NCBI RefSeq assembly: GCF_002160495.1
Contig: NZ_NFKR01000018.1
Coordinates: 1 to 53,931, forward strand
Length of the DNA stretch: 53,931 bases
From: Erysipelatoclostridium sp. An173
GTDB taxonomy: Bacteria; Bacillota_I; Bacilli_A; Erysipelotrichales; Coprobacillaceae
Direction: 5' to 3'
This document shows positions 12,270-38,350 of the stretch, piece after piece (within the stretch, counting starts at the first letter, position 1; the number at the start of each line of letters is the position of its first letter). A program made the position numbers and the translations under genes. Under the pieces are notes generated by a model. The model searched no databases. It was not told the DNA's origin and saw only the letters and a program-made list of their open reading frames with translations.

Positions 12270-12689
12270 ACAATTTTTTGGAATAAACATAAAATAGGGG
12301 TAAATGTAAATGTGCCAATTGATGAATATCAACAGCGATTATTAGCAGCAAGTGGTGATAATAACCATTTTGCTATTATTATTTCTTTTCAAGGGCGCGG
12401 AATATTAAGCAATATTTTGCCAAAGATTCTTAAAGAGAAACAAACCAAAATGTTATTAATTTCAGCATATGGTTACAATTTTAAAAATTTTGATCCTGAT
12501 TATCATCTGTTCATTAATAATCATGAAAATCATTATAAAAAAATATCTTCATTTTCAACTCGTTTATCAATTTTATTTATTTTAGATGTTTTATATACAT
12601 GTTATTTTAAAATGAATTATGATGAAAATGTAAATAAAAAAGTAGCTTATTATGATTTGATCAGCAAATATAATAATACTAATAGTTAG
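12270..12689 (+). pseudogene. RpiR/MurR-type regulator, SIS-domain fragment
   Basis: The frame is open from 12270; a GTG at 12312 after AGGGG could start a 125-residue product. It resembles only the second half of a sugar-phosphate-sensing SIS domain: PIDEYQQRLLAASGDNN, then FAIIISFQGRG (degenerate ISxSG loop), then STRLSILFILDVLYTCYF near the end. The N-terminal DNA-binding domain of RpiR regulators is missing; a stop at 12267 closes the frame. It is therefore a remnant or a DNA-binding-deficient product. It is followed 26 bases later by the EIIB-like gene, so the pair may once have been an operon. Confidence 0.55.
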
Positions 12690-12715
12690 TTTAATACAGT
12701 AAAGATGGTGAAAAT

Positions 12716-13321
12716 ATGGATTCTTTTTTTCAAGATATTAATATTAGTATTTTTAAATCTTGGATTGAAAATTTAAGCTTTAAAGAAATCTAGATTGAAG
12801 AGAAATCAGATGTAATATATTTTAAAAAGAAAGATTTTTTAGGAACAACAGCTTTTTATCGAGATTATTTAATAGAACATGAAATCTTTGATAATTGTAA
12901 TAAGGAACGCTTATATTATATGCACTACCAATTTATAAATTTTAAGCAGGCTTTAATAATCTTTAATGATTTTATTAATACGTTTAAAGAATATTATCAG
13001 CCTAGAGTAATAAAAGTATTGTTATGTTGTAGCGCTGGTTATACTTCTACATATTTTGCTGATGGAATGAAAAGATTTTGCAACCTGGCTAAAATACCAA
13101 TAGAAATTGAGGCAGCTAGTTATAACAATATTGATAAAATGGCTAGACAATATGACATGATATTATTAGCACCCCAGATAGCTTATTTAGAATCAAAAAT
13201 ACTAACTAAATTTCATGGTGATGTTTATTCAATTCCACCTAAAATGTTTGCTACAAATGATTATAACGAAATAGTTGAATTTATTTTAAAACATAATAAG
13301 TTTACTATATTAAACAAATGA
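12716..13321 (+). pseudogene. EIIB-like protein with in-frame amber codon (paralogue of 36923 gene)
   Basis: From ATG 12716 (after GATGGTG) one frame runs to 13321, interrupted only by TAG at 12791-12793 (codon 26). The conceptual 201-codon product aligns with the first ~200 residues of the gene at 36923: the N-terminal domain of unknown function, then the EIIB lactose/cellobiose-like domain with VLLCCSAGYTSTYF, LLAPQ and IPPKMFA. The ROK-like third domain is absent. Re-initiation at ATG 12920 could give a 133-residue product with the whole EIIB-like domain. The presumed phospho-accepting Cys is kept. It is either a pseudogene by a nonsense mutation or an EIIB-only product. Confidence 0.65.
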
Positions 13322-36693: not shown

Positions 36694-36736
36694 TACACTC
36701 TATAATTTAGAAATGGATTATAGGGTGTATTTTTTT
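36694..36736 (+). terminator. Intrinsic terminator after lgt
   Basis: TACACTCTATAAT (36694-36706) pairs with ATTATAGGGTGTA (36717-36729), with one wobble pair, followed by a T run. Confidence 0.9.
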
Positions 36737-36884: not shown

Positions 36885-36926
36885 ATGATAAAAACTAATC
36901 TATTAAAAGCTGGGGAAGAATTATGA
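36885..36926 (+). CDS. 13-residue leader peptide, translationally coupled to the fusion gene
   Basis: A strong Shine-Dalgarno GGGAGG (36871-36876) lies 8 bases before ATG 36885, which opens a 13-codon frame (MIKTNLLKAGEEL). Its TGA overlaps the ATG of the next gene (ATGA). The large gene has only a weak GGGGAAG of its own. It may be a real upstream peptide, or a sign that the large protein once had another N-terminus. Confidence 0.4.
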   Translation: MIKTNLLKAGEEL

Positions 36927-38350
36927 TGGATGAATTTTTAAAAGACATTCATACTGAAATATTTTATTATTGGATATTGAATCAAAAAAATAGGTTATAT
37001 CGTTGCTTTCAAGATCCTGATAATCATCAGATTATTATTTTAGAAAATGAAGATAGTCAAGGAATTATTACTTTCAATAAATATAATATTATTGAATTAA
37101 CAGTAGTTAATAAAATAAAGCATAAAACAGAATTTTATCTTCATTTTCAAATGAAAAATCTTCATCACGCAAAACATCTTTTTGAAGAAATGGTAAAAAC
37201 AATTAAAAAAATTTCAACTACGCCATCAACTAAGATACTTCTTTGTTGTTCAGGAGGATTAACAACAGGTTATTTTGCTGAAAAAATTAATGAAATATCA
37301 AGACTATTAGATTTAGATATTGAAGCTAGGGCGACACGATATCTTGATGTCTATGAAAAAGGGCTTAATTATGATTATGTTTTATTAGCACCCCAGATAT
37401 CATATCTTTGTGCTAATATTCAAAAAGTATTGAAAGAACAAAAGGTTCTTAAAATACCACCTAAAGTTTTTGCTAAATATGATGTATTAAACTTAATCAG
37501 ATTTATTAGTAATTATAATAATAAAACAAATATAATAAATAAAGATAGTGATCGATTATTAATTAAAAGAAATGTTGAATTAGACACAATGATATTATGC
37601 TTATCAGTTTATAAAAATAGTGGCAAAGTATATATTGACTATCGTATTTATGATAAGAATAAAAAAATTATTTATCAAAATGAAATTATAAAACAAACAA
37701 TTGCTATCGAAGATATTTACGATGTATTAGATATTGTTTTAGTTAATTATGATAAAATTGAAAAGATTGCAATTTCATTACCTGGAGTAGTAGATTCAGG
37801 AAAAGTTGTTAGTACATTTGTTGTAAATGCTAATAATATTGATTTAGCAAAAGAGTTAAAGCGAAAGTACCAAAAAGAATTTATTATTGCTAATGATATA
37901 AATGCAGCTGCAATTGGATATTATGGTGTACAGGATATTTATGATTCTTTTTGTTTTTTATTTCAGCCAATTGGTTTGGATGCTGGTTTAGGAACAGTAA
38001 TTAATGGTGAGTTAATTCAAGGTAATTTTCATCTGGCTGGTGAAGTTAAATTTCTGCCACTAGAACTATCTGAGAATAAAGCTGAGTTAAATAAAACCCC
38101 TGAAGGAATCAATGAGTTAGTTTATAAAATGATCGTTACAATCTCATGTATAATCGCACCAGAAGTGTTTGTTATTTATAGTGATATGGTTAATGATGTG
38201 GATTTAATAAAAACTAAAGTTGAACAAAGATTTAATAAAGATGTTGCAAATTTTACAGTTAAGATCGTTAAAGTGGAACATCTACAAGAGTATATATTAG
38301 CTGGCTTGATGATATTAGGGGCAAGAGATTATAATAAACAAAAATTATAG
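36923..38350 (+). CDS. EIIB-like / ROK-like fusion protein of unknown function
   Basis: A 475-residue soluble protein with three parts. Residues 1-100 have no family I recognise. Residues 104-197 match a PTS lactose/cellobiose EIIB domain: KILLCCSGGLTTGYFAEK with Cys109 in the phospho-accepting position, VLLAPQISY and KIPPKVFAKYD. Residues 222-470 resemble a ROK sugar kinase/regulator: IAISLPGVVDSGKVV, ANDINAAAIGYYG and GLDAGLGTVINGEL. The ROK N-terminal DxGGT phosphate loop and the zinc-binding CxCG motif are not seen, so kinase activity is doubtful. Likely a phosphorylation- or sugar-sensing protein; that is inference. It sits alone after the lgt terminator. Confidence 0.7.
   Translation: MMDEFLKDIHTEIFYYWILNQKNRLYRCFQDPDNHQIIILENEDSQGIITFNKYNIIELTVVNKIKHKTEFYLHFQMKNLHHAKHLFEEMVKTIKKISTTPSTKILLCCSGGLTTGYFAEKINEISRLLDLDIEARATRYLDVYEKGLNYDYVLLAPQISYLCANIQKVLKEQKVLKIPPKVFAKYDVLNLIRFISNYNNKTNIINKDSDRLLIKRNVELDTMILCLSVYKNSGKVYIDYRIYDKNKKIIYQNEIIKQTIAIEDIYDVLDIVLVNYDKIEKIAISLPGVVDSGKVVSTFVVNANNIDLAKELKRKYQKEFIIANDINAAAIGYYGVQDIYDSFCFLFQPIGLDAGLGTVINGELIQGNFHLAGEVKFLPLELSENKAELNKTPEGINELVYKMIVTISCIIAPEVFVIYSDMVNDVDLIKTKVEQRFNKDVANFTVKIVKVEHLQEYILAGLMILGARDYNKQKL

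Follow-up and report, generated by a model that had tools for sequence, protein, structure and literature searches.

An HTH-less fusion of an N domain, a PTS EIIB domain and a ROK domain in Erysipelatoclostridium sp. An173, a candidate soluble sensor

The fusion gene and its setting

The window, i.e. the whole 53,931-nucleotide stretch of Erysipelatoclostridium sp. An173 DNA that was analysed, contains an open reading frame of 475 codons for amino acids, which starts with ATG and has no internal stops (Table 1). The genes uvrB, cca, uvrA, hprK and lgt, named from their translations, lie upstream, and a convergent flavodoxin-like gene lies downstream. No EIIC gene was found beside the fusion gene, the neighbours being lgt, the flavodoxin-like gene and trxB. 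Due to the terminator-like hairpin after lgt, transcription of the fusion gene probably starts at a promoter of its own and probably covers this gene alone; the pathway is therefore not named by the neighbours. The beginning of the fusion gene is overlapped (ATGA) by a short ORF of 13 codons (36885-36926, + strand) that has a good ribosome site, an arrangement like that of translationally coupled genes. Such an ORF was not evident in the aligned regions upstream of the G004 and G008 orthologues.

Table 1. Positions of the fusion gene, its domains and conserved codons, and other features of the window.
Feature	Position	Strand	Basis
Terminator-like hairpin and T run after lgt	36694..36729	+	1 found, 0.3 expected
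Complete N domain-EIIB-ROK fusion gene	36923..38350	+	ORF, Pfam, AlphaFold2 model, dN/dS
N domain (residues 1-100), alpha-beta5-alpha sandwich	36923..37222	+	Model pLDDT 94.5; no Pfam match
Codon of His74, invariant	37142..37144	+	67/67 fused proteins; 28/28 in a wider set including stand-alone N-EIIB
PTS EIIB domain, Lac/Chb type (about residues 103-203)	37229..37531	+	PF02302 and 2wy2 fold match
Codon of Cys109, predicted phospho-cysteine	37247..37249	+	67/67 fused; 23/23 stand-alone N-EIIB
Linker (about residues 204-221), low confidence	37532..37585	+	pLDDT about 57 at residues 201-210; no HTH match
Domain with ROK fold (residues 222-475); DxGxT loop and zinc motif absent	37586..38347	+	Fold matches
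Codons of Asn324-Asp325, matching the Asn and Asp that bind sugar in ROK proteins	37892..37897	+	Asn 67/67; Asp 62/67
Codon of Glu374 in the AGE motif, matching a sugar-binding Glu of ROK proteins	38042..38044	+	67/67
RpiR remnant, fragmented	12312-12689	+	Adjoins decayed N-EIIB
Decayed stand-alone N-EIIB paralogue	12716..13321	+	In-frame TAG, codon 26

Only two Pfam families were matched by the protein, both above their curated cut-offs: PTS_IIB (PF02302) at residues 104-182 with 33.7 bits (cut-off 23.6) and ROK (PF00480) at residues 234-375 with 63.4 bits (cut-off 22.9). The same two families were matched by all 67 divergent full-length members of the fusion family. The AlphaFold2 model, calculated with these 67 homologues as input, had a mean pLDDT of 91.5. 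No HTH family was matched in the protein by Pfam, nor was a PRD or HTH domain matched in the protein or the other members. No membrane helix was detected, as the most hydrophobic stretch of 19 residues (400-418) forms a helix and a strand within the ROK fold. The linker of about 20 residues is too short for an HTH according to the model and would correspond to the place of the HTH in the ROK partner of the split pairs described below.

An earlier note on this DNA had proposed a three-part fusion of an N domain, a PTS EIIB-like and a ROK-like domain, and the Pfam matches and predicted folds agree on this architecture: the EIIB fold (2wy2) and the ROK fold (4htl) were both recovered by structure prediction. 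The absence of EIIC, HTH and membrane parts, claimed there as well, is in agreement with the neighbours, Pfam and the model. The earlier note knew of no described protein of this kind, and searches of Pfam, the NCBIfam equivalogs, the PDB and open-access papers did not reveal one with the N-EIIB-ROK architecture.

Split relatives and order of events

The genome of An173 carries four fused copies, one split N-EIIB/HTH-ROK pair, two stand-alone N-EIIB genes and the decayed N-EIIB of the window. Matches were found in 48 of the 118 genomes of relatives searched. In the search at the class and phylum level, full-length matches did not extend beyond the same family, apart from a few members of another family in that order. 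The fusion family is almost restricted to one family of Erysipelotrichales, where several copies per genome are common; the named hosts are Thomasclavelia, Longibaculum muris, Faecalibacillus, Massilimicrobiota, Candidatus Stoquefichus, Sharpea and Eggerthia catenaformis. The protein, novel-looking to the earlier note, belongs to a multi-copy family with split versions and is no isolated oddity.

Nearly all matches of the N-domain profile in 60 genomes were located within open frames long enough for both N and EIIB, which indicates that N-EIIB is a unit. The neighbourhood census included 64 distinct stand-alone N-EIIB genes, eight of which lie directly before a ROK gene. In seven of these cases, from seven genomes, the following gene encodes an HTH-ROK of about 310-337 aa and either adjoins or overlaps the N-EIIB gene; the remaining case is a shortened, probably frameshifted fusion. 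An RpiR regulator was found within two genes of 19 of the 64 and within four genes of three more; for comparison, the An173 genome has 30 HTH_6 matches in its 2.9 Mb. Neither regulator was present within four genes of the other 34. Some RpiR pairings are tight co-directional operons, such as that of G004, where EIIB is followed by RpiR (HTH_6 plus SIS) and then, about 28 bases further on, by N-EIIB. A large share of the RpiR cases represents a single conserved divergent block with a metallophosphoesterase, and these non-independent cases therefore count once. The RpiR - N-EIIB operon of the window (12312-13321) is decayed; G004 has an intact EIIB - RpiR - N-EIIB at the corresponding place, and the operon is intact in two genomes of the same genus.

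Several further arrangements were observed. N-EIIB is divergent from an RpiR gene two genes off at L013, L099, L105, L213, L214, L218, L219, L222 and L225, and several divergent loci have a calcineurin-like phosphoesterase gene in between. At L098, L101, L103 and L205, N-EIIB is placed within a sugar operon with genes for a KDPG aldolase-like protein, PfkB-like kinase, 6-phospho-beta-glucosidase, maltose acetyltransferase and YdjC/ChbG. A general tie of the family to 6-phospho-beta-glucosidase or HAD phosphatases was unconvincing. The synteny of the split pair is kept at L094, L095 and L097, where the HTH-ROK gene has been lost; N-EIIB can therefore outlast its presumed partner. A BrxF-like P-loop protein (PADLOC BrxF, E 2.8e-17) is encoded after fused genes of one subclade at L053:11326-11757 and seven similar loci. 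Frames of 542-571 aa, which had suggested an N-EIIB-HTH-ROK triple fusion, were rejected as a read-through counting artefact of genes that are merely adjacent.

Trees were calculated for both parts of the fusion. For the ROK tree, two ROK kinases from the same genome served as outgroup. The 45 fused domains formed one clade (90/92), and both the split HTH-ROKs and the HTH-ROK encoded on contig C42 branched outside it. The nearest relatives of the fused ROK domain are ROKs that have an HTH and come from the same genomes. In the midpoint-rooted N-EIIB tree, the fused proteins fell into one clade (100/97) together with the frameshifted copy and one stand-alone copy, and the ROK-paired units were located between this clade and the RpiR-linked group. 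As the fused ROKs are a single clade inside the HTH-bearing ROK regulators, the loss of the HTH accompanied the fusion. The simplest history would be that N-EIIB stood first beside a regulator, then beside an HTH-ROK, and was finally fused to the latter minus its HTH.

Conserved and lost features of the three domains

Residues 102-203 of the model were superimposed on EIIB-chitobiose (2wy2) with Z 17.8 and an rmsd of 1.5 Å over 102 aligned residues (28% identity). The score with TIGR00853 (pts-lac), 52.2 bits, did not reach the curated cut-off of 110. Cys109, Thr114, Pro157 and Gln158 are invariant over the 67 members, and Cys109 had been named correctly in the earlier note. A single Lac/Chb-family EIIA (PF02255) is encoded in the An173 genome, at C46:69213-69485, and an EIIA of this family was found in all surveyed N-domain relatives except two incomplete genomes, G002 (89%) and G009 (69%), so that Cys109 could be served. 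The retention of all four catalytic EIIB residues, the close fit to EIIB-chitobiose and the 6-phospho-beta-glucosidase near some copies would suit an ordinary phospho-carrier, in which the protein is a soluble EIIB for at least one EIIC permease and the N and ROK domains only tune or locate it. We consider this unlikely, as the fusion gene has no adjacent EIIC, the genome has about ten further EIIB matches without an N domain, and the pairing with HTH-ROK and RpiR genes would be left unexplained.

The N domain modelled on its own resulted in a confident fold (Table 1). The structural matches after realignment were all marginal: the TriTu immunity protein (Z 8.5), the SycT chaperone (Z 8.0) and frataxin (Z 7.8). 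The Foldseek search with this domain gave nothing below E 0.001, the PHROGs search gave no solid match, and the matches of the N-domain profile among PDB sequences were repeat-protein artefacts only. A proposed conserved pair of Glu58 and His74 was weakened, since Glu58 is Glu in only 53 of the 67 members, against the invariant His74. The HTH-less fusions persist under selection and some part must therefore carry the output; as no function is assigned to the N domain, it might itself bind DNA, in which case the fusion would be a new type of transcription factor, complete in itself. This is improbable. The N domains are acidic, with a mean net charge of -6.6 (n = 67; 0 in the protein of the window), no DNA-binding domain is among their best, marginal fold matches, and the partner in the split form has an HTH of its own.

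The ROK domain (model residues 222-471) matched 4htl with Z 24.2 and an rmsd of 2.4 over 238 aligned residues, followed by the repressor Lmo0178 (Z 22.1), MecR2 (4ija, Z 22.0) and Mlc in the Mlc/EIIB complex (Z 19.7). The DxGGT ATP loop was present in none of the 67 members, nor in the aligned stretch 221-242, and CxCG was likewise absent from all 67; the position of the zinc-motif His is Tyr or Phe in 57. The sugar contacts N, D, E, H and E of ROK proteins are listed in a paper on the GNE kinase, where the zinc motif GHx9-11CxCGx2G(C/H)xE is called characteristic of the ROK family (PMC2742894). The first three contacts are retained in the fusion family and the H and the second E are lost. Invariant residues of the domain are Asn324, Asn327, Gly373 and Glu374, and Asp325 is replaced by Asn in four members and by Glu in a fifth. 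The earlier note's description of the domain as degenerate and without both motifs is thus right for the motifs and too sweeping for the domain as a whole, given the invariant Asn324 and Glu374 and the predominant Asp325. With the ATP loop and zinc motif gone and N-D-E retained, the use of ATP by the fusion protein is very unlikely, and sugar binding by its ROK domain is possible.

DhaM drives dihydroxyacetone kinase by phosphate transfer. In a comparable manner, the fusion might be a soluble PTS-driven sugar kinase, in which phosphate would pass from Cys109 to a sugar in the ROK pocket: the ATP site has been lost, the donor is on the same chain, and Asn324, Glu374 and mostly Asp325 are kept. 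However, five members have replaced Asp325, the equivalent of the catalytic base of ROK kinases, the pocket His and second Glu are gone, sugar phosphorylation by EIIB normally requires EIIC, and the nearest kin in the ROK tree are regulators, which together make such a kinase decidedly improbable.

Compared with the orthologues of two same-genus genomes, dN/dS was 0.12-0.18 and low in all three domains; the fusion family is under purifying selection. Most of the copies found, across many genera, have intact frames, and the idea of a relic, a fused regulator that is being lost, is already disfavoured and has a very slight probability in spite of the missing HTH, ATP and zinc motifs and the decayed N-EIIB copy in the window.

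Proposed working and comparison with known systems

The reading which we prefer, and to which we give an even chance, is a soluble sensor of the PTS state and of a sugar that acts by protein contact and is derived from an N-EIIB/HTH-ROK gene pair by loss of the HTH. The ancestor would have consisted of two genes, an N-EIIB reading PTS phosphorylation and an adjoining HTH-bearing ROK repressor, which were joined into one chain while the HTH was dropped. In the present protein, a Lac/Chb-type EIIA would load and unload phosphate on Cys109 as the sugar flux dictates, the ROK domain would dimerise, and a sugar or phospho-sugar may be held in the remaining Asn-Asp-Glu pocket. The combined phosphate and sugar state would set the binding of a partner, probably via the N domain; both the partner and the direction of the effect are inferred. 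Because the HTH is gone, the output is most easily pictured as contact, and the partner would most likely be a PTS component or a sugar regulator of the RpiR or ROK type that has an HTH. A possible DNA-binding partner of the HTH-less fusions is a further HTH-ROK of the same subfamily (L014:8326-9315), without the DxGGT loop and widespread across the family.

The earlier note had likewise suggested that PTS phosphorylation and a sugar are read and that the protein acts by contact, which is partly supported, as it fits the comparative evidence. Consistent with the sensor are the invariant Cys109, the retained Asn-Asp-Glu, the descent from an ancestor that still had the HTH and the pairing of N-EIIB with ROK and RpiR genes. 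Against it count the lack of a constant partner, the missing pocket His and second Glu of ROK kinases, and the many fused genes, including that of the window, which stand alone beside housekeeping genes. A split HTH-ROK partner gene was not found in some genomes with fused proteins. A broader proposal can be added, which we regard as rather unlikely: N-EIIB would be a new exchangeable PTS-input module coupled to the unrelated RpiR and ROK regulators, the N domain, with the invariant His74 upstream of the Cys, would join in phosphoryl transfer or read-out, and the fused ROK domain would be a sugar-gated output arm without DNA contact.

The living genomes present an evolutionary series from a PTS sensor gene and a ROK repressor gene to a single chain without a DNA-binding domain. 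If the function of the sensor holds, the Mlc-EIIB principle would operate in cis in Gram-positive gut bacteria rich in PTS genes, and it would be explained how a PTS input is added to RpiR and ROK regulators that have none. That EIIB can serve as a sensor and ROK as a regulator is known; their HTH-less fusion with an N domain is undescribed in the sources searched.

The dephosphorylated EIICB-Glc of Escherichia coli (PtsG) binds and sequesters the ROK repressor Mlc (PMC3901232; complex 3bp8). In that pair, as proposed for the fusion, a ROK regulator is coupled to an EIIB whose phosphorylation state is the signal. In contrast, the fusion has a soluble EIIB of the Lac/Chb type that shares one chain with the ROK domain; it possesses neither HTH nor zinc motif and carries the N domain in addition. 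The Staphylococcus aureus protein MecR2 (4ija) resembles the fusion in its ROK fold, in that the HTH can be missing, and in that the HTH-less MecR2 of strain N315 directly binds another repressor, MecI (PMC3406092). It differs by having neither EIIB nor N domain, and a deletion of four bases gave rise to its HTH-less form. In PRD regulators (MtlR and kin), an EIIB-type domain similarly serves as the PTS input of a regulator (PMC6148471), whereas the fusion has no PRD or HTH, its EIIB is of the Lac/Chb kind and its other domain is a ROK. The fusion shares with the NagC/XylR-type ROK repressors a ROK domain that is closest to the HTH-bearing ROKs of the same genomes, and is distinguished from them by the loss of the HTH and zinc motif and by being joined to N-EIIB.
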